Below, piece after piece: positions 296 to 26,891 of a stretch of DNA of 64,000 bases. The position numbers and the translations under genes are program-made. The stretch is from Blastocatellia bacterium (lineage in GTDB: Bacteria; Acidobacteriota; Blastocatellia; HR10; J050). Where the stretch lies: contig JALSQX010000087.1 in assembly GCA_026985075.1 (NCBI GenBank), forward strand, positions 45,813 through 109,812, read 5' to 3'. The notes under the pieces were generated by a model that saw nothing but the letters and a program-made list of their open reading frames with translations, was not told where the DNA came from and did no database searches. Position 1 is the stretch's first letter; the number at the start of each line of letters is the position of its first letter.

Positions 296-874
296 ATGAA
301 CGCGATGAAAAAGTTAGCTGGCGCTTTCGCCCTGGTTATGGTGCTGGCTTCGGGAACCATGGCTCAAATTGATAAAGTGACCGTCAGGATCGACGGATTG
401 GCTTGACCATTTTGCGCTCACGGGTTGCGGAAGGAACTGCAACGCATCCCGGGCGTCGGTGACGCCAAAATTTACATCGACGAGGGACGAGCCGAATTGA
501 GCCTCATTCAAGGCCACTCCATCGATCTCGACGCGATTGAGGAAGCCATCAGAAAAGGTGGATACACGCCGCGCGATATCTGGATTGAGGCCGTGGGCCG
601 AATCGAACGACGGGGTGGTCAACTGATGCTGGTGATTCCCGGACAGGGCATGACATTCCTGCTGGTCGAAAATGATCCCATGCGGAAGTTGAACCGTGCG
701 CTGGCCGGACAGAATGATCGTCCGGTGACCATTGTGGGCAAGCTCCAAAAAGCAGTGTCGGATGGTCAGCCGCATCGGTTGATCATCGAACGATTCGAAA
801 TAAACTCAACAAGCCGTTGGAGAGTGCGCCGAAACCTGATGGGGATCTCCAACAGAGACACGGAGCGACCATGA
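296..874 (+). CDS. Exported HMA-domain metal-binding protein with a UGA (probable selenocysteine) at residue 37
   Basis: Reading from ATG 296 (AGGAGG at 283-288) through the TGA at 404-406 gives 192 residues. Residues 1-23 form a signal peptide ending in Met-Ala. Next comes a heavy-metal-associated (HMA, MerP-like) ferredoxin fold whose metal loop would read Gly-Leu-Ala-U37-Pro-Phe-Cys40. The downstream gene at 1302 is a paralogue of the same design with Cys at exactly position 37, so the UGA replaces the first metal ligand of a C-x-x-C pair. Similarity between the two continues on both sides of the UGA, for example in the GGYTPRDIW segment. The C-terminus is about 20 residues longer than in the paralogue and its stop overlaps the next start (ATGA at 871-874). 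A likely role is periplasmic capture of a soft metal for the neighbouring carriers. A nonsense mutation is possible but unlikely, given three further UGA-for-Cys genes in the window. Confidence 0.85.
404..443 (+). promoter_or_regulatory. UGA codon with candidate bacterial SECIS hairpin (HMA protein)
   Basis: The UGA is 404-406. A 5-bp stem (GTTGC 424-428 with GCAAC 439-443) closes a 10-nt loop that begins with GG. The loop starts 23 nt after the UGA, within the spacing reported for bacterial SECIS elements, which also favour a G at the loop start. Caution: the Cys paralogue can form a similar GTTGC/GCAAC stem (1430-1443) with loop AGAA, so part of this hairpin may come from shared coding sequence. 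Confidence 0.5.
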
Positions 875-1254
875 AAGAGAAGATCGTGAGTGTTCTGGCG
901 CTGTTCACGTCGGTGGGCACGCTATTTTGTTGCGCCTTGCCGGCCTTGTTGGTCACGCTCGGGTTGGGCACAGTTGTCATCTCGGCCGTATCTGCTTTTC
1001 CCTGGTTGATTCCGCTCGCGAAACACGAGGAATGGCTGTTTCTGGGGGCTGGCGCGCTGATCGGGCTGAATTTCTTTCTTGTCTACCGACCGCAGAAGCA
1101 GGTCGCCTGTAATGTGCAGGCTGGAGAACAAGGATGCCAAGTCGCGGGCCGGTGGAACAAACTGGTGTTATGGCTCTCGGTCGGGATTTACGTCATAGGC
1201 CCGTTCATGGCATACCTGGGGCTACCACTATGGAAGCTCCTCGAACGTGCGTGA
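871..1254 (+). CDS. MerT/MerC-like heavy-metal transport membrane protein
   Basis: This 127-residue protein starts at ATG 871 inside the stop of the upstream gene (4-base overlap), which implies translational coupling. The first membrane segment contains a vicinal Cys-Cys (LFCCALPALL, around residues 17-26). Such a pair in the first membrane helix is the hallmark of MerT-type inner-membrane carriers that accept a metal from a periplasmic binding protein. Hydrophobic segments lie at about residues 5-45, 50-70 and 100-122. A loop with two further cysteines (VACNVQAGEQGCQ) lies between them. The pairing with the exported HMA protein mirrors the MerP-MerT relay, with MerP-like delivery of metal to the Cys pair. 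The substrate is not determined by sequence; mercury is the family precedent. Confidence 0.75.
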   Translation: MKEKIVSVLALFTSVGTLFCCALPALLVTLGLGTVVISAVSAFPWLIPLAKHEEWLFLGAGALIGLNFFLVYRPQKQVACNVQAGEQGCQVAGRWNKLVLWLSVGIYVIGPFMAYLGLPLWKLLERA

Positions 1255-1301
1255 TGTTGTCCTTGGTTTGGGCATTATCAATTTCATGAGATGGAGGAAA
1301 T

Positions 1302-1826
1302 ATGAATAGCATGAAGAAAATCACCGTAGCTCTGCTGCTGGTCGTGACAGCAGCACCAGTGGTTTTGGCTCAGATCGACAAAGTCACGGTCAGAGTCGAT
1401 GGGTTGAGTTGCCCGTTTTGCGCGTATGGGTTGCAGAAGCAACTGAAGCGCGTCCCGGGCGTTAAGGGCGTCAAAATTTACGTTGATCGGGGTCGAGCGG
1501 AGCTGACCGTGGCCGAAGGAGAGTCCGTCGATTTCAGCGCTATCGAGGATGCCATCAAGAAAGGGGGATATACGCCGCGCGACATCTGGATGGAGGCGAC
1601 GGGTCGCATCGAGCAATGGAATGGTCAACCGGCGCTCGTCATTCCCGAAAATGATGTGAAATTTTTACTGGCCGAGAATGATCATTTGCGCAAGTTGAAC
1701 GATGCCCTGAGCGGTCAGAAAGACCGTTCTGTGTTCATTGCCGGAAAGCTCGAGAAGCAGAATCCGAGGGGACATCACGGACATCCTTATACGCTCATCA
1801 TCGAGCGCTTCGAGTTGGTGAACTGA
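1302..1826 (+). CDS. Exported HMA-domain metal-binding protein (cysteine paralogue)
   Basis: This 174-residue protein starts at ATG 1302 behind GGAGGAAAT. It has a signal peptide (residues 1-23), then an HMA fold with metal loop Leu-Ser-Cys37-Pro-Phe-Cys40, followed by a roughly 100-residue C-terminal domain. That domain ends with a His-rich turn (HHGHP, about residues 157-161) that could add metal ligands. It is closely related to the protein at 296-874, shares its residue numbering through the metal loop, and differs most informatively in having Cys where the other has UGA. The two therefore form a natural Sec/Cys pair within 2 kb. The C-terminal domain is not one I recognise. The likely location is the periplasm. 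Confidence 0.85.
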   Translation: MNSMKKITVALLLVVTAAPVVLAQIDKVTVRVDGLSCPFCAYGLQKQLKRVPGVKGVKIYVDRGRAELTVAEGESVDFSAIEDAIKKGGYTPRDIWMEATGRIEQWNGQPALVIPENDVKFLLAENDHLRKLNDALSGQKDRSVFIAGKLEKQNPRGHHGHPYTLIIERFELVN

Positions 1827-1904
1827 AAAAGAGGAGAGCGAACGCAGAGCCTGAGTTCACCGCAAGGACGCAAAGGGCGCAATGGGGTGAATGAGGAATG
1901 TCAA

Positions 1905-2969
1905 ATGAGGAACTCCAGTGACGTGAAAAGGGGATGGGCGACTTCACGGCGCCTTCCGATCGTTCTGGGAACTCTCGTTCTCATTGCAGGTATGACCTTC
2001 GGCGTGCTGGTTCGCTGGGGAACGAGATGGACGATTCCGCTGAGCCCGGCGAGTGGGGACAGGTATGAGTTGCTCGCTCAGTGGGGCGGTGTTGGTCTCC
2101 CATCGGGACCGTTCGAACGTCCCATCGGCATAGCCGTGACGCCGGGAGGAGATCTCTATGTGACTGATGCGCGGAGGCGCGTCATCCACCTGAGTGCGGC
2201 GGGCGACATCATCGGCGAGTGGGGGCGCGAGGGCGATGGGCCCGGGGAGTTCAGTAATCCCGTGGGCGTGGCCGTGGCTCCTGACGGCTCGGTGTTTGTC
2301 TCGGACTATGATCAGGATCGCATTCAAAAGTTCACATCAGATGGTCGATTTCTCCTCGCGTTCGGGAGTTCGGGTTCCCAGCCGGGTCAATTCGACGCTC
2401 CGGCGGGATTGGCGGTGGACGCCGCGGGATTCGTATACGTGGCCGATTTCTATAATCATCGCGTGCAGAAATTCCGGCCTGATGGGACGTTTCAGGGCAT
2501 CGTCGGTCATCCGGGCCGCATCGGTGATGGCGCTCTTCATTATCCCACGGGCGTGCATGTCACGTCGGATGGACAACTGCTCGTTGCCGACGCTTACAAC
2601 TATCAGCTTCAGTGGTTCGACCGAGAAGGCCGTCCCATCAGGCGAATCGGCTATCATCTCTTCTGGTTGTGGCCGCGGCCGGTGTCATCAAGGAGGGGAT
2701 TCAACGTGCCAACCGGTGCGGCCGTCGGCCCGGGCGGCTTCGTCCACGTGGCCGATAGCGGGAATCACCGCCTGGTGATGCTCTCGGAGAAGGGAGAATA
2801 CCTCGCCGACTGGACGATTCCGGATGCACATCCCAGCGTGTATTCTCCAGAGAAGGTGGCCGTGTCGCCCGATGGATCAACCGTCTATGCGACCGATCTG
2901 GCCGCCAATCGCATCCTGGTTCTGAACGTCATACGCCCGCACCGATCACCCGGAAGGAGGGGAAGGTGA
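1905..2969 (+). CDS. Membrane-anchored NHL-repeat protein
   Basis: From ATG 1905 (GAGGA 7 bases upstream) the protein has 354 residues; an in-frame GTG at 1887 is the alternative start. One N-terminal membrane segment lies at about residues 15-37. It is followed by about six NHL-type repeats, recognisable by recurring G(V/I)AV.PDG..(F/Y)V(S/A)D and N.R.Q.F patterns such as GDLYVTDARRRVI, GSVFVSDYDQDRIQKF and GFVYVADFYNHRVQKF. NHL repeats fold as a beta-propeller used for protein or ligand binding. The stop overlaps the ATG of the MerT-like gene (ATGA at 2969), so it belongs to the same transcription unit. It could act as a scaffold for the exported metal proteins, but this is only positional inference. 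Confidence 0.8.
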   Translation: MRNSSDVKRGWATSRRLPIVLGTLVLIAGMTFGVLVRWGTRWTIPLSPASGDRYELLAQWGGVGLPSGPFERPIGIAVTPGGDLYVTDARRRVIHLSAAGDIIGEWGREGDGPGEFSNPVGVAVAPDGSVFVSDYDQDRIQKFTSDGRFLLAFGSSGSQPGQFDAPAGLAVDAAGFVYVADFYNHRVQKFRPDGTFQGIVGHPGRIGDGALHYPTGVHVTSDGQLLVADAYNYQLQWFDREGRPIRRIGYHLFWLWPRPVSSRRGFNVPTGAAVGPGGFVHVADSGNHRLVMLSEKGEYLADWTIPDAHPSVYSPEKVAVSPDGSTVYATDLAANRILVLNVIRPHRSPGRRGR

Positions 2970-3244
2970 TGAATGAGAAGCGATCCAGCCTGATCGCCAG
3001 CCTGTTATCGGCGCCCTGGTGTTGAGTGGCTCCGGCGGTCCTTTCCCTGCTCGGGTTAGCAGGGGTCGGCACGGCACGCCTCATCGCCGCGAAATTGGCG
3101 CCCATTTTTCTCGTCCTGGCAGTGCTGTTACTCGGGCGCGCACATTATCTCATCTACGTGAAAAAGCATGGGACGCCAGTGAGCCGCTTCATCGTTTGGG
3201 CGGCCACTATAGCGACCGCCGGATTGTGGATTTGGAGGTTATAG
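2969..3244 (+). CDS. MerT-like membrane protein with Cys-UGA (probable Cys-Sec) pair
   Basis: Translation from ATG 2969 reads 18 residues to Trp17-Cys18, meets TGA at 3023-3025, and continues as Val-Ala-Pro-Ala-Val-Leu to a TAG at 3242-3244 (91 residues). In MerT-type carriers the first membrane helix has two adjacent cysteines followed by small residues and proline. Here the second is the UGA, giving Cys18-U19. Three membrane segments are visible (about residues 7-31, 36-56 and 70-88). Without readthrough the first ORF would be an 18-residue peptide and the remainder would lack its metal site. Selenocysteine forms of MerT-type proteins have been reported in bacterial selenoproteome surveys, which supports the reading. 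The gene overlaps the NHL gene by one base. Confidence 0.82.
3023..3064 (+). promoter_or_regulatory. UGA codon with strong candidate SECIS hairpin (MerT-like)
   Basis: The UGA is 3023-3025. A perfect 6-bp GC-rich stem (CCCTGC 3045-3050 with GCAGGG 3059-3064) closes the 8-nt loop TCGGGTTA. The loop starts 26 nt after the UGA and carries GGG, as expected for a SelB-binding apical loop. This is the best-looking of the four hairpins. Confidence 0.65.
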
Positions 3245-3385
3245 TCTCCGGTTACAGCCATACCCTACGGATTGATCCTTGTCAATGGCTCGAGTTGCCC
3301 AGTCCGCCTGCGGCTGGGCTTTGTATGGCTCGACGGGAAGAGAGAAAGCGGGTCCTACGCTGGCATCAATCACCCATACCTTCAC
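3239..3385 (-). pseudogene. Truncated PIN-domain (VapC-like) toxin remnant
   Basis: On the minus strand a GTG at 3385-3383, overlapping the stop of the antitoxin-like frame, opens a 48-residue frame beginning VKVWVIDASVGPAF. The beginning matches the start of PIN-domain toxins (hydrophobic strand, then Asp-Ala-Ser with the first catalytic Asp). After about 25 residues it loses resemblance and ends at TAA 3241-3239, far short of the usual 130 or so residues. The end overlaps the 3' end of the Sec-MerT-like gene. It is probably a relic of a vapBC pair into which the metal genes were inserted. Confidence 0.5.
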
Positions 3386-3639
3386 GTTCGCTTCTCCAAC
3401 TCCTGGCGAGCCTCACGTGCCGACTTCGCGGCGCTCACCGCCAGGTCGGCAAGCTCCTGAGAGAGTTGCAAGGCTTCGAAATAGGCTTGCAGTCGCTCTA
3501 ATCGCTCGTACTCTTCCGGAGGAAGAAGGGCTCCTGCCAGCTCACCGCGCCGAAAAATCAGGATCGTTGTCTGATCTTGCTCGGCCTCCCGGAGTTGTCG
3601 GGTGAGAGCTTTCTTTTTGGTGACCGGATCGAGATGCGA
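3382..3639 (-). pseudogene. Phd/AbrB-like antitoxin remnant
   Basis: The minus-strand frame is open from 3639 to a TGA at 3384-3382 (about 85 residues) but has no clear start codon or RBS. It encodes a short basic N-terminus, a strand FRRGELAGALLPPEEYERLE typical of Phd/YefM-type antitoxins, and a long charged helix. Its stop overlaps the start of the PIN-like fragment, the usual order of a type II toxin-antitoxin operon. The missing start and the truncated partner suggest that the pair is dead. Confidence 0.4.
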
Positions 3640-3696
3640 TCAACGGGAGCATCGCTTTGACACTCGACCCATCTATGTGATAGCTTCGTTATTCTA

Positions 3697-4128
3697 ATGC
3701 TCACGAGTCTCAGGAAAATCTGGTTGGCGCTCGCTCTGGTTGGCATGATCTTCCCCATTACCTTCGGATACGTTCAAGCCGAGCAGTGTCCGATGAGGCG
3801 GCAAGGGCAAATGTGCGCCGCGCGCGAGTGTGCCGGATGTTGCAGCCTGGCGCGTCGGCCCATCAATCATCTGGGCGCCCGCCTCTGCTGCGCCTTCCAC
3901 TGCGATGAGCCGCCGTTGGATGCCGATGGTGGAACGGATATCGAAGCGTGTTTCACCACGACGAGCATCGAACTGCTTCCCCAGCCGGTCAGCATCATCG
4001 ATCTTTTCCCCCAGGTGCTTCGATCTCTGCATGAGGCGGCTCGCTCATTTCGCTCCTATAAAGGATTGAAAAACTTCCTTCCCGATCAATCCGGCGTTTA
4101 TCTCATCCACAGTTCATTTCTCATCTAA
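3697..4128 (+). CDS. Small exported cysteine-rich protein of unknown function
   Basis: This 143-residue protein begins at ATG 3697. Residues 1-28 look like a signal peptide ending Val-Gln-Ala. The mature N-terminal half has nine cysteines within about 50 residues, in the pattern C-x8-C-x4-C-x2-CC followed later by CC-x3-C, while the C-terminal half has almost none. I do not recognise the family. The Cys pattern, export signal and position between metal genes suggest an extracytoplasmic metal-binding or redox-sensing protein. A TTGACA box lies at 3657-3662 with a weak ATAGCT at 3680-3685 (17-bp spacer), which would give a very short leader. Confidence 0.65.
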   Translation: MLTSLRKIWLALALVGMIFPITFGYVQAEQCPMRRQGQMCAARECAGCCSLARRPINHLGARLCCAFHCDEPPLDADGGTDIEACFTTTSIELLPQPVSIIDLFPQVLRSLHEAARSFRSYKGLKNFLPDQSGVYLIHSSFLI

Positions 4129-4212
4129 TCGTTCGCCCCTCTTTCGCTCGTGAGGCTCGGCGAGCGGGAAGGTTTCTCTACAATCAAACTCCCCAGGTAA
4201 CAGTCGCTCACA

Positions 4213-4384
4213 CTGGAAGCGGACCGTGGCGAGTTATCAGGTCGGCAAGATCGAATTTCTATCGGTGCTCGATAGCCTGACGAAGTTGCTCAATGACGAG
4301 TTGAGTTACTGGGAGAACTTCGCCAGCTACCAGAAGGCACTCGCTGAGCTTGAACCGCTCGTGGGCGTCGAGTTGACCAAATGA
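4213..4384 (+). pseudogene. C-terminal remnant of a TolC/CusC-type outer-membrane efflux protein
   Basis: The frame ending at TGA 4382-4384 encodes about 57 residues beginning near WKRTVASYQVGKIEFLSVLD and continuing with a long amphipathic helix. This is the typical last coiled-coil helix of TolC-family factors, where the SYQVGKxxFLxxLDxxxxL pattern is characteristic. No matching upstream part exists: the frame is closed by TGA at 4151-4153 and the preceding residues are unrelated. The gene is therefore 5'-truncated by a deletion or replacement. It sits where the outer-membrane component of the CusCBA-type system would be expected, 51 bases before the adaptor gene. Confidence 0.65.
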
Positions 4385-4435
4385 CGCTGATTCATTTTCG
4401 GCGTTGGGAGATTCACAGCGAGGAGGTTATCGGCT

Positions 4436-5989
4436 ATGGATGAGAAGCAACCTGTAAATCCTGACAGTATGACCCCCGACTCCCGGCCCTCCGGATCGCA
4501 CGAAGATCCGCTGAGCGTCTTGCGTGAAGCGCTGGAGGGATCAGAAACGAGTAGCCAGGCTGACGATGCCGCTACGGGAGGTGAGAGAGCGCATCTCCCG
4601 AAGGAAGCCAGAGCCCGGCCTGAAGTCGAGCATTTGCGCCGCTGGATACCGGCGATAGTGCTGATCAGTGCCCTGGTGGTCGGACTTGGCCTGGCGACTT
4701 ATGCCTCCCGCCATCATCTTGCCGAGACCCGGCTGGGTCAATGGCTTGGATGGGAACAAGAGCATCAACACGAACTGGTGCCGGTCAAGGATGAACAGGG
4801 CAACATCAAATACTGGACCTGTACCATGCATCCCTCGGTGCGATCCAAAGATCCGGGCACGTGCCCCATATGAGGCATGGATCTGGTCCCCGTGCGGGAA
4901 CAGGCGGCGGAAACCGCAGCGGCTGAATCAGAGGTGAGGCCCAGCCCTTCAGCCGCTCTCTTCACGGTCAGCCCCGAGCGCCAACAACTGATCGGCGTGC
5001 AATTCACCGAGGTCGCGTGTCGAGCCATGGAGAAAGTCATCCGCACCGTCGGGCGCGTGGATCTCGACGAAACGCGCATCGCCCACGTCAATACCAAGAT
5101 CGAGGGCTGGATTGAGCGAGTCTTCGTCAATTACACCGGACAACATGTCGAGCGCGGCGAACCGCTGTTCACCATTTACAGTCCGGAACTGGTGGCTACG
5201 CAACGAGAGTATCTCTTGGCCCTCAAAGCGCAAGACATGCTCGGCAAAAATCCCTTCCCCAAGGTAGCTGCGGGAGCCGTCTCGCTGTTGGACGCGACCC
5301 GCGAGCGACTCCGGCTATGGGACATCACCGACGAGCAAATCCAGGAACTCGAGCGGACCGGCCGGGTGAAACGCGCGTTGACGATCTATTCGCCCGTTTC
5401 CGGTTACGTCATCGAGAGAAACGCTTTCCCTCAGATGCGCGTCACGCCGAATACGCGCCTCTACACCATCGCCGATTACAGTCGCGTCTGGGTGCATGCC
5501 GATATTTATGAGGACGAGATCGCCTTCGTCAAACTCGGCCAAAAGGCGGAGATGACCGTTCCTTCGTATCCTGGCGAGGTGTTCGAGGGCGTCGTCACTT
5601 ACATCTGGCCTCACCTGGAGGAAGAGACCCGCACGCTGAAGATCCGCATGGAATTTGCCAACCCCGATCTCGCGTTGAAGCCGCAGATGTACGCTGACGT
5701 GAAGCTGCGTGTCCCCCTGGAGCGAAAGCTGGCCGTGCCCAAGAGTGCCGTCCTGCGCACCGGCGAGCGCGACATCGTCTTTGTCGATCGTGGTCATGGC
5801 CGCATGGAGATCCGAACCGTTCGCCTCGGCCACGAAGTCGATGAGTACTACGAAGTGTTGGATGGACTCAATCTGGGGGAGCGCGTCGTCACGGCGGCCA
5901 ATTTCCTCATCAGCGCCGAGAGCCAGGTTCAGGGCGCCATCGCCACCTGGCAGGCCTCACCATCACAAGGAGGGGAAAACCGTGATTGA
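4436..5989 (+). CDS. cusB: CusB-type RND efflux adaptor with UGA (probable selenocysteine) in its heavy-metal-binding domain
   Basis: ATG 4436 follows GAGGAGG. Reading through the TGA at 4871-4873 yields 517 residues. Residues 68-88 are a membrane anchor. A heavy-metal-binding domain follows at about residues 118-152 with YWTCTMHPSVRS and then Cys-Pro-Ile-U146-Gly-Met-Asp-Leu-Val-Pro. In this domain family the motif is C-P-x-C-G-M-D-L, so the UGA replaces the last Cys. From about residue 180 on it has the periplasmic adaptor architecture of CusB: beta-barrel, lipoyl and hairpin segments with IYSPVSGYVIERN. The stop overlaps the cusA start (8 bases), so adaptor and pump are co-translated. Adaptors pass metal from periplasm to the RND pump; the modified site probably captures it. 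Termination at the UGA would leave a 145-residue membrane-anchored stub. Confidence 0.88.
4871..4903 (+). promoter_or_regulatory. UGA codon with candidate SECIS hairpin (CusB)
   Basis: The UGA is 4871-4873. CTGGTCCC (4883-4890) can pair with GGGAACAG (4896-4903) through seven base pairs and one G-A mismatch, closing the 5-nt loop CGTGC whose second base is G. The loop starts 18 nt after the UGA, near the lower end of the usual range. Confidence 0.5.
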
Positions 5990-8900
5990 GAGGGTGATCG
6001 ACTATTGCGCGCGACATAAGTTCATCGTTTTTTTCATGGTGGTGTTTGCTACCGCCACCGGCATCTGGTCGGTGCGAAACATCGCGCTGGATGCCATTCC
6101 CGATCTGTCCGATGTGCAGGTGATCATCTTCACCGAATGGCCGGGGCGCAGTCCCGATCTCGTGGAGGATCAAATCACGTATCCCATCGTGACTCGTATG
6201 ATTGCCGCACCTCGCGTGCAATTCGTGCGCGGCCAATCGTTCTTTGGGCTCTCGTTCGTCTACGTCATCTTCAAAGACGGCACCGATATGTATTGGGCGC
6301 GCAGTCGGGTGTTGGAATACCTGCAGGGTCTTCAGGGAAATCTCCCCGAGGGCGTCACCCCCGTTCTCGGTCCCGATGCGACCGGGGTCGGGTGGGTCTA
6401 CGAATATGCCCTGGTCGATGAGACGGGAAAGTATGATCTGCAACAGTTACGAAGCTTCCAGGACTGGTATCTACGCTATTGGTTGGAGTCCGTTGAGGGC
6501 GTAGCCGAGGTGGCCAGCGTCGGTGGATTCGTCAAACAATATCAAATCAATCTCGATCCCGATAAGCTGCTGGCCTATAACATCCCTCTGAGACAGGTCA
6601 TCGATGCCGTGCGCCGCTCCAACAACGACGTCGGCGGTCGCCTGGTGGAAGTGGCGACCACCGAGTACTTCGTGCGCGGACGCGGTTATGTCAAGTCGAT
6701 CGCCGACATCGAGCATATCGTCGTGGGAACCGATGGTCGGGGGACGCCCATCACCATCAAAGATCTCGGCAACGTTGAGCTGGGACCGGACATCCGGCGC
6801 GGACTGGCCGAACTCAATGGCGAAGGCGAAGTCGTCGGCGGTATCGTGGTGATGCGATATGGACAGAACGCGCTCCAGGTCATCGAACGCGTGAAACGAA
6901 AACTCAAGGAGATCGAGCCATCTCTCCCGCCGGGCGTGAAAATCGTCACCACCTACGATCGCTCTGACCTCATCCTGCGGGCCATTGGTACGCTCAAAGA
7001 GAAATTGTTCGAGGAGATGATCGTGGTCAGCGCCATCATCCTCATCTTTCTGCTTCATGTGCGCAGCGCGATGATTCCCATTCTCACGCTGCCCATCGCC
7101 GTGCTCATCTCGTTCATTCCCATGTATGCCATGGGGCTGACGGCCAACATCATGTCTCTGGGCGGTATCGCCATCGCCATCGGCGCGATGGTGGATGCCG
7201 CCATCATTCTCATCGAAAACGCGCACAAGAAACTCGAACAATGGGAGGCCGGTGGACGCCGAGGAAGCCGAATCGACGTCCTCATCCAGTCCTTTCAGGA
7301 AGTGGGTAAATCGCTCTTTTTCTCACTGCTCATCATCACCGTGTCATTTTTGCCCGTGTTCACCCTCCAGGCTCAGGAAGGACGATTATTCAAGCCATTG
7401 GCTTACACCAAGACGTTCTCCATGTTCTTCGCAGCATTGCTGTCAATCACATTGGCGCCAGCGCTGGGTGTGATGCTCATTCGCGGGCGGATCTGGTCCG
7501 AAGAGAGACATCCCATCAGTCGCCTTCTCCAGCGGCTGTACACGCCGATTCTGTATGTCGCGGTGCGATTTCGCAAGACGGTGATCCTGGTGGCGCTGCT
7601 GTTGGTCGTCTCCACCGTGCCCGTTTTCTTGAAACTCGGCTCGGAGTTCATGCCGCCACTCAATGAGGGCTCGATTCTGTATATGCCCACGGCCGTCCCG
7701 GGCATGTCCATCACCGAGGGGGCGAAGATTCTTCAGATTCAAGACAGGATCTTGCGACAGTTTCCAGAAGTGATCAGTGTGTTCGGCAAGATCGGGCGTT
7801 CGCGCACGGCCACGGACCCCGCTCCCTTGAGCATGGTCGAGACCACCGTGTTGCTCAAGCCTCAGGAAGAGTGGCGCAAAGTACGCCAGGAGCGATGGTA
7901 CTCGAGTTGGGCGCCAGACTGGTTGAAATCATGGCTCAGAAAGATCTGGCCCGAAGAGCGACCGATGACCTGGAATGAACTGATCGACGAGATGCACCCC
8001 AAGCTGAATTTTCCCGGCATGCCGCCGGTCTGGTGGATGCCGGTGCAGACGCGCACCGAGATGCTGGCCACCGGTATTCGCAGCAACCTGGGCATCAAAG
8101 TCTTTGGACCTGATCTCAGCACCATTCAACAGATCGCCGTTCAAATCGAGCGCGCGCTTCAGGATGTGCCCGGGACGCGCTCGGTGTTCGCCGAACGAGT
8201 CACCGGAGGGTATTTTCTCGATTTCCATATCGATCGTCGCCGGGCCGCTCGCTATGGGCTCACGGTGGGCGACGTTGAAGACATCATTGAGAGCGCCATC
8301 GGCGGCAAGAATATTGCGCAGACCGTGGAGGGACGCGAACGATATCCGATCAACGTGCGGTATCTGCGCGAGCTGCGCGATGATGTGACCAAGCTCGGTC
8401 GCGTGCTCATCCCTACGCCAACCGGCGCTCAGATTCCACTCTCGCTGGTGGCCGACATTTCCTATACCATGGGCCCTCCATTGATTCGAGATGAGAATGG
8501 TCAACTGGTCGGTTACGTGTTCGTGGATGTGACGGCCAAGGATTATCAGGGATATGTCGAGCGGGCGCAGCAACTCATCCGCCAGCGCGTGACATTACCG
8601 CCGGGATATACCCTTCAATGGGCCGGGCAGTATCAGTACCTGCTCAGAATGAAAGAGCGGTTGAAATACGTCATCCCCCTGACGCTCGTCATCATCTTCA
8701 TGCTCCTGTACATGAATTTCAATTCCTGGAAAGAGCCGCTCATCGTCTTCCTGGCCGTACCGTTTTCGCTGGTGGGAGCGATCTGGCTCCTCTACCTCCT
8801 CGATTACAATTTGAGCATCGCCGTCTGGGTGGGGATGATTGCACTGGCCGGATTGGATGCTGAGACGGGAGTGATTATGCTCCTCTATCTGGATCTCGCC

Positions 8901-9230
8901 TATAACCGGTGGCGACGAGAGGGCCGGATGCGAAATTTGGGAGACCTGACCGAAGCGATTCACGAGGGCGCGGTCAAGCGCGTTCGTCCCAAGATGATGA
9001 CCGTCTGCGCGCTGATTGGCGGACTTCTTCCCATCATGTGGGCGGGGATGTATGAGACGGGGGCCGATGTGATGAAACGCATTGCCGCGCCCATGGTGGG
9101 CGGATTGATCACCTCGTTCATCCTGGAGCTGACTGTCTATCCAGCCATCTTTGCCTTATGGAAAAAGGGTGAAATCGAGGGATGGCGAGCCGTGGCCAGG
9201 GAATTCATTCCCTTCGCCCGGAAGAAGTGA
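5982..9230 (+). CDS. cusA: CusA/SilA-type heavy-metal RND efflux pump
   Basis: GTG 5982, preceded by AAGGAGG, gives 1082 residues, the expected size for the HME subfamily of RND transporters. The protein starts IERVIDYCARHKFIV with the first membrane helix, followed by the family pattern ALDAIPDLSDVQV. The typical pore-domain WPGRSPDLVEDQITYPI and RND helices with GGIAIAIGAMVDAAIILIENAHK (acidic residue in helix 4) follow. The C-terminal half carries KVRPKMMT-type and IAAPMVGG motifs. It uses the proton gradient to export Cu(I), Ag(I) or another soft metal through the adaptor and an outer-membrane channel. The channel gene next door is broken, so a channel encoded elsewhere must be used. Its start overlaps the adaptor stop. 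I see no frame damage. Confidence 0.95.
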   Translation: MIERVIDYCARHKFIVFFMVVFATATGIWSVRNIALDAIPDLSDVQVIIFTEWPGRSPDLVEDQITYPIVTRMIAAPRVQFVRGQSFFGLSFVYVIFKDGTDMYWARSRVLEYLQGLQGNLPEGVTPVLGPDATGVGWVYEYALVDETGKYDLQQLRSFQDWYLRYWLESVEGVAEVASVGGFVKQYQINLDPDKLLAYNIPLRQVIDAVRRSNNDVGGRLVEVATTEYFVRGRGYVKSIADIEHIVVGTDGRGTPITIKDLGNVELGPDIRRGLAELNGEGEVVGGIVVMRYGQNALQVIERVKRKLKEIEPSLPPGVKIVTTYDRSDLILRAIGTLKEKLFEEMIVVSAIILIFLLHVRSAMIPILTLPIAVLISFIPMYAMGLTANIMSLGGIAIAIGAMVDAAIILIENAHKKLEQWEAGGRRGSRIDVLIQSFQEVGKSLFFSLLIITVSFLPVFTLQAQEGRLFKPLAYTKTFSMFFAALLSITLAPALGVMLIRGRIWSEERHPISRLLQRLYTPILYVAVRFRKTVILVALLLVVSTVPVFLKLGSEFMPPLNEGSILYMPTAVPGMSITEGAKILQIQDRILRQFPEVISVFGKIGRSRTATDPAPLSMVETTVLLKPQEEWRKVRQERWYSSWAPDWLKSWLRKIWPEERPMTWNELIDEMHPKLNFPGMPPVWWMPVQTRTEMLATGIRSNLGIKVFGPDLSTIQQIAVQIERALQDVPGTRSVFAERVTGGYFLDFHIDRRRAARYGLTVGDVEDIIESAIGGKNIAQTVEGRERYPINVRYLRELRDDVTKLGRVLIPTPTGAQIPLSLVADISYTMGPPLIRDENGQLVGYVFVDVTAKDYQGYVERAQQLIRQRVTLPPGYTLQWAGQYQYLLRMKERLKYVIPLTLVIIFMLLYMNFNSWKEPLIVFLAVPFSLVGAIWLLYLLDYNLSIAVWVGMIALAGLDAETGVIMLLYLDLAYNRWRREGRMRNLGDLTEAIHEGAVKRVRPKMMTVCALIGGLLPIMWAGMYETGADVMKRIAAPMVGGLITSFILELTVYPAIFALWKKGEIEGWRAVAREFIPFARKK

Positions 9231-9347
9231 ACGTCCTAATGACCTCACCACGGCTGGTGAAACCCATATGCGAATTCGGCGCTCGCCTCTCAAAAAACTA
9301 GAGGGAAAGCGAAACAGGACGGCCGGTGAACACTCCGGAAAAAGAGC

Positions 9348-9379
9348 TTGACTCTGGAGTCAACTCCAGGGTTTATAAT
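9348..9379 (+). promoter_or_regulatory. MerR-type promoter/operator with 20-bp spacer
   Basis: A -35 TTGACT (9348-9353) and a perfect -10 TATAAT (9374-9379) are separated by 20 bp, the over-long spacing that MerR-family activators correct by twisting DNA. The spacer holds a perfect dyad, CTGGAGT (9354-9360) and ACTCCAG (9363-9369). The -10 ends only 6 bases before the merR ATG at 9386, so the transcript should be leaderless or nearly so. The promoter reads into merR and the genes behind it, implying autoregulation. Confidence 0.85.
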
Positions 9380-9385
9380 GTGAGT

Positions 9386-9862
9386 ATGGCATTAGAGAGA
9401 GCAAGCCCATCCAGGCTCAGGATTGGTCAAGTGGCCGCGCAAAGTGGCGTGAGCGTTGACACGCTTCGCTACTATGAGCGACTGGGGCTCTTGCCCGTGT
9501 CGGCGCGGACCGACGGTGGCTATCGGCTCTACGATCCGTGGGTTCTGGATCGGCTCGCCTTCATCAAGCGGGCGCAAAGTTTCGGGTTCACGCTCGATGA
9601 GATCAAGCAAATGCTACAACTGGAGACGGCCGAGCCGGAGGCCTGCTCGCGCGTCCTGGAGATGATCGAGCAGAAGCTCGAAGATCTCGATCGACGGTAC
9701 GAAGAAATCAAACGGCTCCGGCGCGAACTCGCTGCATACAAAATTGAGTGCGAGCGTGCCTTGGCCAGTCATCAGTGCTGCCCGGTAATTGAGGATTTTC
9801 TTCACCCTCGGTCGCGCCGCGAAAGGAGTGGCACGAGGGAGAAACGGCGTGGCCGGAAGTGA
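9386..9862 (+). CDS. merR: MerR-family metal-responsive transcriptional regulator
   Basis: From ATG 9386 the protein has 158 residues. I prefer this start over the upstream in-frame start (9326) because the latter would lie upstream of the promoter boxes. Residues 11-55 are the MerR winged helix (RIGQVAAQSGVSVDTLRYYERLGLL), followed by a dimerisation helix of about residues 80-120. Cysteines at the helix start (Glu-Ala-Cys), in the helix end (Glu-Cys-Glu) and a C-terminal Cys-Cys (SHQCCPVIEDF) are candidate metal ligands; MerR itself binds Hg(II) with three cysteines from the two subunits. It controls the operator just upstream and the transporter and reductase genes behind it. Confidence 0.9.
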   Translation: MALERASPSRLRIGQVAAQSGVSVDTLRYYERLGLLPVSARTDGGYRLYDPWVLDRLAFIKRAQSFGFTLDEIKQMLQLETAEPEACSRVLEMIEQKLEDLDRRYEEIKRLRRELAAYKIECERALASHQCCPVIEDFLHPRSRRERSGTREKRRGRK

Positions 9863-9908: not shown

Positions 9909-10769
9909 ATGAAAGAGAACATGACATTAGGAGCATCCATCCTGACGGCGATCACGGCGTCACTGTGTTGTATTGGGCCGCTGGCGGCGACACTGCTCGG
10001 CATCGGCAGTTTTGGTGCGGCGGCCGCGTTCGAGGCGTGGCGGCCTTATCTGCTGGGAGTGACCGTTGCCCTTCTGGGCGCGGCCTTCTATCTCACCTAT
10101 CGCAAGCGGGAAGTCGTGTGCGCCGATGGCACGTGCCAGATGAGCAGCGCCCCACGGTGGAATAAAATCATGCTGTGGGTGGCTACGGTAATGGTCATAT
10201 TGTTTGCCGCTTTTCCGTATTATTCGGGACCGCTGTTGGCGGCGCTGAGCCGAAGTGCCAATCAGTCATCACAAGAGTCGGCGCCAGCCGCCACTCAACA
10301 GCAGACCCGAGCGCGCATCGCCATTAGTGGTATGACCTGTGAGGGTTGCGCCGCCAGCGTGAAAGTAGCGTTGGAGGAGCTCGCCGGGGTCACATCGGCG
10401 ACGGTGAGTTATGAGAAGGGTGAGGCGATCGTCACGTATGATGCGGCGCGGGTGACGACTGAGCAATTGAAGAAAGCGATCAATGGCATCGGATTCAAAG
10501 CCGAAGCGGTGAAGATCCTCTCGCCGGAGAAGGCGGAAACGACGGCCTCGGAGGCCAAACTCGCGACGGCGACCATTCGGGTCGAGGGCATGACCTGTGG
10601 GGCGTGCGCGACGTCGGTTCGCCTGGCCTTGACCCGACAGGACGGCGTCGCATCGGCCGAAGTCAGTCTGGAGAAGAAACAAGCCGTAGTGACTTACGAT
10701 CCAACCAAAGTCACCCGTCAACAACTGGTCGAAGCCATCAATGAGACGGGCTTCAAAGCCAAACTGTGA
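9909..10769 (+). CDS. merTP: MerT-like carrier fused to two HMA domains
   Basis: This 286-residue protein has three parts. Residues 1-100 are MerT-like, with three membrane segments and a Cys-Cys pair in the first (SLCCIGPLAA, about residues 18-27). Residues about 135-200 and 215-286 are HMA domains with metal motifs GMTCEGCAASV and GMTCGACATSV, respectively. Fusions of MerT with one MerP-like domain are known; two tandem HMA domains after the carrier are less usual. All metal sites here are Cys, in contrast to the UGA-bearing proteins upstream. The gene follows merR by 46 bases with an AGGAG element, and is followed by the thioredoxin-like gene after 9 bases. Confidence 0.88.
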   Translation: MKENMTLGASILTAITASLCCIGPLAATLLGIGSFGAAAAFEAWRPYLLGVTVALLGAAFYLTYRKREVVCADGTCQMSSAPRWNKIMLWVATVMVILFAAFPYYSGPLLAALSRSANQSSQESAPAATQQQTRARIAISGMTCEGCAASVKVALEELAGVTSATVSYEKGEAIVTYDAARVTTEQLKKAINGIGFKAEAVKILSPEKAETTASEAKLATATIRVEGMTCGACATSVRLALTRQDGVASAEVSLEKKQAVVTYDPTKVTRQQLVEAINETGFKAKL

Positions 10770-11147: not shown

Positions 11148-12503
11148 ATGAACACCCATACGTTCGATCTCATCGTCATTGGCACTGGTGCCGCCGCGTC
11201 CACCGTCGCCACGAAGTGTCGCCAGGCGGGTTGGCGCGTGGCCATCATTGATGCGCGACCGTTCGGTGGGACATGCGCGTTGCGCGGGTGCGATCCGAAG
11301 AAAGTGCTGGTGGGAGCTGCTGATCTCATCGATGGGCACCGTCGGATGGAAGGACGTGGCCTTGTATCTGAGGGCGCGCGCATCGATTGGGCGACACTCA
11401 TGCAGTTCAAACGCACGTTCACCGAACCCGTCCCCGAGAGCCGAGAGCGGGCTTTCGCTCGAGCGGGCATTCAGACATTTCATGGATGGGCGCGATGCGT
11501 TGATCGAACCAGTGTTCAGGTAGGCGAGGAGACGCTGATCGGGCGATACCTCCTCATCGCCACCGGGGCCAAGCCGGTCACGCTCGATATTCCCGGCGAG
11601 GAATATCTCATCACCAGCGACAAATTTCTCGAGCTCCAGGAGCTTCCTCGACGCATCACGTTCATCGGCGGTGGATATATTTCTTTCGAATTCGCGCACG
11701 TAGCCGCGCGCGCTGGCGCCGAGGCCCGGATTCTCCATCGGAGTCGGCGCCCGCTCAAAGGCTTCGATCCCGATTTAGTCGATCAACTGGTGCGTGCTAC
11801 GCAGGATATCGGCATCGATGTTCAATTGAACGCGCAGGTGACGGCGATTGAGCGAGGGACGGGAGAATACATCACTCGTGCATCGGTGGATGGGAGCGAA
11901 TGCTCCTTCGAAGCCGATATGGTCGTTCATGGTGCCGGGCGCGCGCCGGAGATCGATGAGTTGGAGCTGGACAGAGCGGGCGTCGCGCATGACCGCCGTG
12001 GCGTCGTGGTCAACGAATATCTCCAGAGCATCTCCAATCCGGCGGTCTATGCTGCCGGCGATGCCGCGGCCAGCGGCGGGCCACCACTGACGCCCGTCGC
12101 CAGCCTGGAAGGGCACGTGGTGGCCAGCAATATGCTCAGCGGGAATCATCGCACGCCGGACTATACGGGCGTGCCGACGGTCGTGTTCACCATTCCGCCG
12201 CTGGCGTCGGTCGGACTGCGGGAGGAGGAGGCCGAGAGGCGAGGCCTCAAGTTCAGAGTCCATCATCGGGATACGTCGGGGTGGTATTCGTCGCGGCGGG
12301 TGAATGCGAGGACTTCGGGCTTCAAAGTGCTCATCCAGGAAGGGACAGATCGCATTCTGGGCGCGCATCTGTTGGGACCTCACGCTGAAGAAGTCATCAA
12401 TCTATTTGCTCTGGCCATTCGCGAGGGCCTCACGGCCCGCGACCTCAAACGCATGCCGTACGCTTACCCCACCAGTTGCTCCGACGTGGCCTATATGGTT
12501 TGA
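11148..12503 (+). CDS. FAD-dependent pyridine nucleotide-disulfide oxidoreductase (MerA/glutathione-reductase-like)
   Basis: The 451-residue protein has the FAD-binding start FDLIVIGTGAAASTVATKC, the redox disulfide GGTCALRGCDPKK (C-x4-C) at about residues 42-55, an NAD(P) Rossmann motif ITFIGGGYISFEFAH near residue 170, the second FAD motif AVYAAGDAA near residue 305, and a C-terminal dimerisation domain. It lacks the N-terminal HMA domain and the C-terminal vicinal Cys pair of classical mercuric reductase; its C-terminus ends TSCSDVAYMV. It is therefore a close relative of MerA whose substrate (metal ion, or a disulfide/selenenylsulfide partner) cannot be fixed. Its location behind merR-merTP implies metal induction. 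Confidence 0.85.
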   Translation: MNTHTFDLIVIGTGAAASTVATKCRQAGWRVAIIDARPFGGTCALRGCDPKKVLVGAADLIDGHRRMEGRGLVSEGARIDWATLMQFKRTFTEPVPESRERAFARAGIQTFHGWARCVDRTSVQVGEETLIGRYLLIATGAKPVTLDIPGEEYLITSDKFLELQELPRRITFIGGGYISFEFAHVAARAGAEARILHRSRRPLKGFDPDLVDQLVRATQDIGIDVQLNAQVTAIERGTGEYITRASVDGSECSFEADMVVHGAGRAPEIDELELDRAGVAHDRRGVVVNEYLQSISNPAVYAAGDAAASGGPPLTPVASLEGHVVASNMLSGNHRTPDYTGVPTVVFTIPPLASVGLREEEAERRGLKFRVHHRDTSGWYSSRRVNARTSGFKVLIQEGTDRILGAHLLGPHAEEVINLFALAIREGLTARDLKRMPYAYPTSCSDVAYMV

Positions 12504-26114: not shown

Positions 26115-26891
26115 ATGACATTCATTGTGCTCTCGTGGGTGTTCTTCGTCGTCGGCTGGGCCGTGTACATTCGGCGGTTCCGGCGGGAGATTTATCGGAG
26201 TTACCCGATGGCGACCTTCTTCTTTTTGCTCTTGGCCCTGGCTTTGGCCGTCTATCAGGTCATCAGCGCGGGAGGCTTCTGGGGTTGGGTGACATTAGGC
26301 ATCGAGGGAGCGATCATCGCCGTCTTCGCCTGGTACATGTTCGTCTATTCGTTCACGCCCAGGAAACGCGTGGCCCTGCGGGAGGGCGATATGATGCCAG
26401 ACATCAGGCTTCCCACATCCGATGGAACGACGTTTTCACCGCGAGATATGATAGGCCGTCGCGCCGTTCTTTATGACTTTTATCGCGGTGACTGGTGAAA
26501 ATTCTGCGTCGTCGAGCTCGGGCAGCTCCAGGCACAGATGAGCGAGTTTCAAAAGCGTGGGGTAGACCTCGTTGCCGTGAGCGTCGATCCGCCAGAGGTG
26601 TCGGCCCGATTGAAACGAAAGTTGAAAGCGGACGCCGTCACCTTTGTGTCCGATCGCGCGTTGCAGCTCATCGACGCCCTCAATTTGAGGCATGAAGGGG
26701 CGATGCCGCGTATGTTTCGACATGAGCGAGGCCGCGACACGGCGTTGCCCACGCTGGTGTTGGTGGATCGACAGGGGATCATCCGTTGGGTGTATCGTCC
26801 GGAGAATTATCGGCTCCGCGCTCAGCCCGAGAAGATCCTGGCCGAGATTGATCGAATGAACGCATCGGCGAGCGTGAATCCCGATCAGTGA
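26115..26891 (+). CDS. Membrane-anchored peroxiredoxin-like protein with UGA (probable selenocysteine) at residue 128
   Basis: ATG 26115 starts a 258-residue protein when the TGA at 26496-26498 is read through. The N-terminal 85 residues have three membrane segments (about 3-20, 33-50 and 56-79). A thioredoxin-fold domain of the AhpC/TSA type follows: MMPDIRLPTSDGTTFSPRDM, then YDFYRGDW-U128-Lys-Phe-Cys131. Homologues read F-x-R-G-x-W-C-P-x-C here, so the UGA replaces the first, redox-active Cys of W-C-x-x-C. The fold continues with ELGQLQAQMSEFQKRGVDLV, AVSVDPPEV and LPTLVLVDRQGIIRWVY. It probably reduces peroxides or protein disulfides at the membrane. Sec at this site would lower the pKa and speed reaction. 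It is about 20 kb from the metal island. Confidence 0.9.
26496..26528 (+). promoter_or_regulatory. UGA codon with candidate SECIS hairpin (peroxiredoxin-like)
   Basis: The UGA is 26496-26498. A perfect 5-bp stem, GAGCT (26514-26518) with AGCTC (26524-26528), closes the loop CGGGC. The loop begins 21 nt after the UGA and has G at its second position. Spacing and loop match the bacterial SECIS rules well. Confidence 0.6.

Follow-up and report, generated by a model that had tools for sequence, protein, structure and literature searches.

The window analysed here, the whole 64,000-nucleotide stretch from a Blastocatellia bacterium (assembly GCA_026985075.1, contig JALSQX010000087.1, positions 45,813 to 109,812; C87:45813-109812 in our numbering), belongs to a 5.2-Mb genome of 105 contigs that is 98.66% complete. 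Its first 6 kb contain genes for an exported HMA-domain carrier, a MerT-like membrane protein, and a CusB-type adaptor of a resistance-nodulation-division (RND) efflux pump; each gene has one internal in-frame stop, a TGA at a cysteine position, and each is predicted to encode a selenoprotein with selenocysteine (Sec, U) at that UGA. An earlier note on this DNA had claimed three UGAs at conserved Cys sites, and they are present at 404-406, 3023-3025, and 4871-4873. Acidobacteria bacterium J050 (G298) carries the same island, with the same gene order, on a 21.4-kb contig. The three genes and their features, with putative selenocysteine insertion sequence (SECIS) hairpins, are as follows:

296-874, forward strand: exported HMA-domain carrier, predicted selenoprotein; PF00403 over cut-off; one internal stop (TGA), with Sec at codon 37; UGA stop at 872-874
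404-406, forward strand: in-frame UGA at the first Cys of the C-x-x-C of the HMA carrier, aligned with the TGC of 1302-1826 and that of J050
2969-3244, forward strand: MerT-like membrane protein, predicted selenoprotein (PW-C-U-VAP); UGA kept in J050
3023-3025, forward strand: in-frame UGA of the MerT-like gene, in place of the second Cys of its vicinal pair
3044-3065, forward strand: putative SECIS hairpin of the MerT-like gene; 8-bp stem TCCCTGCT/AGCAGGGG, loop CGGGTT, 26 nt from the UGA
4436-5989, forward strand: CusB-type RND adaptor whose heavy metal binding domain (CP-I-U-GM) would contain Sec; PF19335, PF16576, and TIGR01730 over cut-offs
4871-4873, forward strand: in-frame UGA of the CusB-type gene, at the Cys equivalent to LpCopA C59
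4887-4899, forward strand: putative weak SECIS hairpin of the CusB-type gene; TCCC/GGGA, loop CGTGC, 17 nt from the UGA

Alignment with homologues that have Cys placed the UGA in register with Cys for all three genes, and family similarity flanks each UGA, as had been claimed: the HMA domain and the heavy metal binding domain span theirs, and the profile of the MerT-like family matches MerT proteins (hhalign 97.5%) with the Cys pairs in register. The chance of three evenly placed stops all meeting Cys positions is about 1.8e-6; the true chance is somewhat above this, a single change being enough to turn a Cys codon into TGA. Little can be read from TGA being the stop in all three, since it accounts for 114 of the 170 single-stop joins that link adjacent open segments of the window. 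UGA also serves as an ordinary stop, as noted earlier, terminating both the HMA gene (872-874) and the CusB-type gene (5987-5989).

The genome encodes the selenocysteine machinery, the absence of which had been named beforehand as the result that would count against the proposal: SelA (478.7 bits) and SelB (370.9 bits) are over their cut-offs, tRNA-Sec is found with 72.8 bits and the anticodon UCA, and SelD, also over its cut-off, has a UGA of its own at GAG-U-ACK. Rfam and ARAGORN searches of the window itself found nothing. With this machinery present, and with the HMA and CusB-type genes themselves ending in UGA, UGA would be read by context, which Sec insertion demands.

Two of the three UGAs are conserved in J050, where UGA is aligned to UGA in the CusB-type and MerT-like genes; sequencing error is very unlikely at these sites, because the same UGAs occur in a separately assembled genome. 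Between the window and J050, dN/dS (NG86) in the CusB-type gene is 0.38 upstream of the UGA (142 codons) and 0.168 downstream (371 codons), and the 20 codons before the UGA have a dN of 0 with a dS of 0.448; in the MerT-like gene the values are 0.138 upstream (18 codons) and 0.18 downstream (72 codons). Given these low ratios on both flanks, selection appears to act on the whole MerT-like and CusB-type proteins, on either side of the UGA. Error or decay as an explanation for all three genes was rejected on the J050 conservation together with dN/dS. A conserved UGA is seen in the MerT-like and CusB-type genes, but not in that of the HMA carrier, which has Cys in the only syntenic genome found.

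In the CusB-type adaptor, the heavy metal binding domain (HMBD; PF19335) spans the UGA with 47.4 bits (cut-off 23.6), and the RND adaptor domains follow downstream of it (TIGR01730, 125.9 bits against a cut-off of 94.9; HlyD_D23, 280.4 against 30). The CusB model PRK09783 gives 165 bits, below 390, so we call the adaptor CusB-type and not CusB proper. Its site reads CTMHPSVRSKDPGTCPI-U-GMDLVPV, where the closest Cys-containing CusBs (L036, L037, and L038; 58-59% identity) have CPICAMDLVPV. Cys is at the UGA position in 21 of the 22 CusB relatives showing the domain (the 22nd, L044, lies partly outside the stretch read, with the Cys visible in the match), and in 11 of the 22 this Cys is the domain's only one. 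Judging by these alignments, the UGA has replaced the single Cys that is retained throughout such domains. The genome also has a CusB paralogue without a stop (L025, C36:38443-39564; 56% identical), whose domain, DPMHPSYTSDKPGIAPDCGM, contains a single Cys at the island's UGA position; it offers a built-in Cys comparison for the Sec adaptor. The best solved match to the HMBD is the metal-binding domain of LpCopA (8ovl), which binds Ag(I) through M44, C59, and M61, not C42/C56, according to nuclear magnetic resonance, and which has a similar shift pattern with Hg(II) (PMC11970713). The Sec position aligns with LpCopA C59, and M44 and M61 are kept, both in the window and in L028, an adaptor fragment at a contig edge (HMBD 50.5 bits, over cut-off).

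The MerT-like protein scores 36.8 bits with MerT models (cut-off 130) and has no Pfam match, PF02411 included; with scores below the MerT cut-offs and only distant homology by hhalign, it is called MerT-like only. The vicinal Cys pair of MerT provides metal ligands. Among the 120 family members listed (184 were found), 111 have CC at the UGA site; of the other nine, three carry a substitution at one Cys and six do not reach the site. Four of these six (P0001, P0002, P0100, and P0112) are annotated from the residue directly after the UGA (VAP), the result expected of gene callers; P0001 comes from J050, and the UGA was read in its DNA. At 1e-6 the family profile is present in 2 of 396 genomes. 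An AlphaFold model of the protein, all helix, was set aside as too poor for use (mean pLDDT 72.5, pTM 0.41).

A distant relative of the MerT-like gene contains two UGAs in tandem. G290, from the same phylum but another family, has TGA-TGA at the Cys pair (PW-U-U-LLP; L065:1546-1551, contig C124), in a gene order of outer-membrane-like, HMA (Cys), MerT-like (CC), MerT-like (TGA-TGA), and NHL-like, the first and last named by eye. Protein P0122 equals the G290 protein at 67 of 70 residues, and its annotated start lies past the tandem site. The SelB match in G290 (219.8 bits, below the cut-off of 242.25) begins at a contig end, in a genome that is 65% complete. We did not accept Sec-Sec as certain here: in the relative P0124, which matches the G290 protein at 56 of 91 residues, the pair reads Cys-Arg, and this makes the second UGA less sure than the first. 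An adjacent Sec-Sec pair is possible on this alignment; none appears in the motif column of the 119-family catalogue of PMC13188914.

For the HMA carrier, PF00403 spans the UGA with 33.3 bits (cut-off 24.8); the protein is below the equivalog cut-offs for MerP (34.0 against 92.55) and for NF041115 (31.3 against 95). The first Cys of HMA domains is important, and this is the position taken by the UGA: the site reads GLA-U-PFC, compared with GLSCPFC in the window's other copy, GLACPFC in J050, and CPFC in P0008, P0009, and P0010. Of the phylum's 297 genomes, 3 contain relatives at 1e-25. Upstream of the UGA, the comparison with the window copy has a saturated dS, and the one with J050 gives a dN/dS of 0.186.

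The neighbouring genes are as follows:

just left of the window: MerR-family gene
ending at 168: outer-membrane gene of the Phenol_MetA_deg type
871-1254, forward strand: MerT-like protein with a Cys-Cys pair, its start overlapping the HMA stop (ATGA)
1302-1826, forward strand: HMA carrier, Cys paralogue (GLSCPFC)
1887-2969, forward strand: NHL-repeat protein (PF01436); the J050 island has a counterpart, and so, judged by eye, does G290
3697-4128: Cys-rich protein, exported by eye, matched by no Pfam or NCBIfam model; J050 too has it next to the Sec genes
4226-4384: short CusC-like remnant, a 52-codon frame resembling, by eye, the C-terminal end of a CusC-type protein; no Pfam match on its own
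5982-9230, forward strand: CusA-type RND pump (CusA/CzcA family model TIGR00914, 1134 bits, cut-off 701); nearest solved relative E. coli CusA
9326-9862, forward strand: MerR-family regulator; Pfam MerR over cut-off, best NCBIfam model MerR with 109.8 bits, below its cut-off of 150.85
9909-10769, forward strand: MerTP-type fusion with two HMA domains, all Cys (NF033556, 214.6 bits, cut-off 180)
11148-12503: disulfide-reductase-like gene
26115-26891, forward strand: AhpC/TSA redoxin, predicted selenoprotein (UxxC), UGA at 26496-26498; separate from the island

Three Met of the CusA-type pump align, as read by eye, with the Met triad of E. coli CusA, which we take to be M573, M623, and M672; PMC6235853 speaks of a (Met)3 set of ligands. 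At the J050 position that matches the CusC-like remnant there is a 460-codon open frame, and NHL-repeat genes adjoin HMA/MerT-like genes in both islands (window 1887-2969; L074 11107-12081). The redoxin is the fourth UGA/Cys protein that had been placed at 26 kb; it has the motif W-U-K-F-C and an N-terminal hydrophobic part, and a hairpin (GAGCT/AGCTC, loop CGGGC) lies 20 nt downstream of its UGA.

We also scanned 84,980 species genomes for the HMBD motif with its last Cys codon written TRR. The scan required one exact spacing, so its counts are lower bounds, and it possibly left out the window's own genome. TGA was found three times (in L028, from a deltaproteobacterium; in J050, L029; and in L030, from a betaproteobacterium), TGG once (L031, from Gallionella), and TAA and TAG not at all. 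SelB exceeds its cut-off in three of the four genomes, those of L028, L031, and L029 (the last a partial match, model positions 1-338); the best SelB match in the L030 genome, whose completeness is not known, has 106.9 bits and is not over it. L030 (UGA at 206-208) was set aside as likely decay, having no SelB over the cut-off and a stop 33 codons past the UGA. No match was found among the viral contigs searched. Within the phylum, CusB matches at 1e-110 occur in 21 of 297 genomes (23 matches listed, with up to five candidates scored per genome); in two relatives an apparent internal TAA proved to be the gene's own end (codons 384/392 and 377/380).

A SECIS search had been proposed for the four UGAs, and we applied our own implementation of the published bacterial SECIS (bSECIS) rule (PMC13188914). 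Hairpins that agree with the rule are present at all four window sites (energies -12.9, -18.9, -11.8, and -14.2), but the background agrees with it about as often: among 200 Cys codons and 200 random codons, 64% and 62.5%, respectively, comply, as do 54% of 37 TGAs that end open segments (sets of at most 200 each, drawn from six-frame open segments of at least 250 codons, not all of them real genes). SECIS was consequently rejected as proof, since the rule fails to separate the window sites from background. Considered as structures, the putative MerT-like hairpin looks good (8 bp) and the CusB hairpin weak, at only 4 bp. More telling is a comparison of just two sequences, window and J050, in which both hairpins are identical. 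The 11 codons from the CusB UGA onward do not differ, a run longer than any other in the 372 codons (6 of the 362 ten-codon windows show full identity), and the longest identical run in the MerT-like gene, ten codons, covers its hairpin (1 of 63 windows).

Besides the background rate of the bSECIS rule and the short CusB hairpin, several observations weigh against reading the three genes as selenoproteins of a metal relay. The HMA UGA has no UGA orthologue, the sole J050 HMA match at 1e-8 having Cys, and dN/dS downstream between the Sec copy and the Cys copies (0.304 and 0.261; 134 codons each) is laxer than in the MerT-like and CusB-type genes, so that selection supports the HMA case too, but more loosely. 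None of the 22 other CusB matches listed for the 297 genomes of the phylum, with at most five candidates scored per genome, has an internal UGA. In the scan, the absence of TAA and TAG is a weak control, since these codons are two changes from a Cys codon; and the single TGG (one change), together with a TGA in a genome without detected SelB, indicates that UGA can also arise here by decay. Finally, the metal ligands of E. coli CusB are N-terminal methionines (PMC6235853), so a role of the HMBD in the adaptor is itself something we infer. The HMA UGA is the weakest of the three Sec cases, and error or decay is possible for this gene alone.

Taking these points into account, we think it probable that three genes of one soft-metal-resistance island encode selenoproteins, with Sec as the soft-metal-binding residue of a relay that runs from carrier to pump. 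The island of three selenoproteins proposed in the earlier note is supported by the sel genes, the register with Cys, and the J050 UGAs; the binding of metal by selenium is what we infer from them. In such a relay, SelB would read a hairpin just after each UGA and insert Sec; the exported HMA carrier (Sec-x-x-Cys) would pick up periplasmic Cu(I), Ag(I), or Hg(II), carriage at the membrane would fall to the MerT-like protein (Cys-Sec), and the CusB-type adaptor, with a Met-Sec-Met site, would receive the metal and open the CusA pump. Sec may bind the metal more tightly or faster than the neighbouring Cys copies do. The match to LpCopA C59, the Met triad of CusA, and the MerTP-type protein over its cut-off favour Cu(I)/Ag(I) or Hg(II) as the metal. 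A broader picture, to which we give somewhat less than an even chance, is a selenium-based export line for soft metals, in which Sec would stand for the key thiolate at carrier, membrane protein, and adaptor, with a Met-Sec-Met HMBD site in two phyla and a Sec-Sec clamp in a MerT-like relative.

The same UGAs could be real stops in decayed or truncated duplicates, with the Cys copies (HMA at 1302-1826, MerT at 871-1254, and the CusB of C36) doing the work. The genome does contain Cys copies of all three proteins, the HMA UGA is not conserved, a short CusC-like remnant (by eye) lies beside the CusB-type gene, a UGA was found in a genome without detected SelB, and TGA outnumbers the other stops of the window; we nevertheless consider decay improbable, as J050 keeps two of the UGAs and dN/dS is low to either side of them, the stops coincide with Cys positions, no gene has a second internal stop, and the sel genes are present. 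Even less credible to us is termination at the UGA with re-initiation immediately downstream, so that each gene would yield two short proteins. Possible start codons do occur there, with ATG two codons on from the CusB UGA and GTG directly behind the MerT-like UGA, where gene callers start (the four proteins beginning at VAP), but such a restart would sever the N-terminal hydrophobic segment and the metal domain from the CusB-type adaptor and split the MerT-like protein, and it leaves unexplained both the dN of 0 over the 20 codons before the UGA and the replacement of Cys by UGA.

Another explanation accepts the insertion of Sec but assigns it to redox or metalloid chemistry (selenenylsulfide formation, or selenium or arsenic handling) and not to a relay ligand. 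Redox function is ascribed to most selenoproteins (PMC13188914), and the predicted Sec redoxin at 26 kb and the disulfide-reductase-like gene at 11148-12503 would suit such chemistry. The HMA and CusB sites, on the other hand, are in metal-binding domains, the third is in a MerT-like protein, CusA and MerTP are nearby, and the CusB Sec is at the ligand position of LpCopA C59; we regard a redox role as unlikely, though a better candidate than decay or restart. The relay with Sec as its metal ligand would place Sec at metal-site positions of successive transport proteins, unlike the mostly redox selenoproteins. The Cys copies in the same genome make selenium's contribution to metal binding directly testable, and a 30-residue peptide suffices for a first test, because the CusB Sec falls on the one Cys shown to bind Ag(I) in a related domain. 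Genes of this kind are missed, since callers start them after the UGA.

Part of this system has known counterparts. Sec MerT and Sec P-type ATPase are already catalogued (Table 1 of PMC9312934; PMC13188914), and MerP is among the selenoproteins listed in PMC2398784. A Sec CusB, RND adaptor, or HMBD is absent from the tables of PMC9312934 and PMC13188914, the main text of PMC12013277 contains none of the terms searched on this topic, and no such protein is reported among the titles listed by our literature searches; an earlier report may lie elsewhere in the literature. The earlier note had taken a Sec form of CusB's HMBD to be undescribed, which fits these two catalogues, and a selenium form of a CusB-type efflux-pump adaptor is likely undescribed; novelty does not extend to Sec MerP-, MerT-, or HMA-type proteins as such. 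The Sec mercuric transport proteins (the PF02411 form with C/SxxU; NCBIfam NF045683, MerT_CopZ_Se; and MerP in the GOS data) are likewise MerT/MerP-type proteins with predicted Sec, but here Sec lies inside the vicinal pair (C-U, or U-U in the relative), in a 91-residue family far below the MerT models. The UxxU metal-binding (seleno)protein NF041115 and the Sec ZntA-type ATPase (UxxC) likewise have Sec in a CxxC-type motif; the window's HMA carrier has U-x-x-C, an export signal (by eye), and a long C-terminal extension. Adjoining selenoprotein genes are known from the SAO and Tso operons, which encode other protein families, whereas here they encode a metal carrier, a membrane protein, and an efflux adaptor (PMC13188914). 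The adaptor itself is like the CusB/SilB-type RND adaptors with an N-terminal PF19335 in its domain order, its adaptor domains, and the downstream CusA, and differs from them in that the second Cys of C-P-x-C is a UGA.

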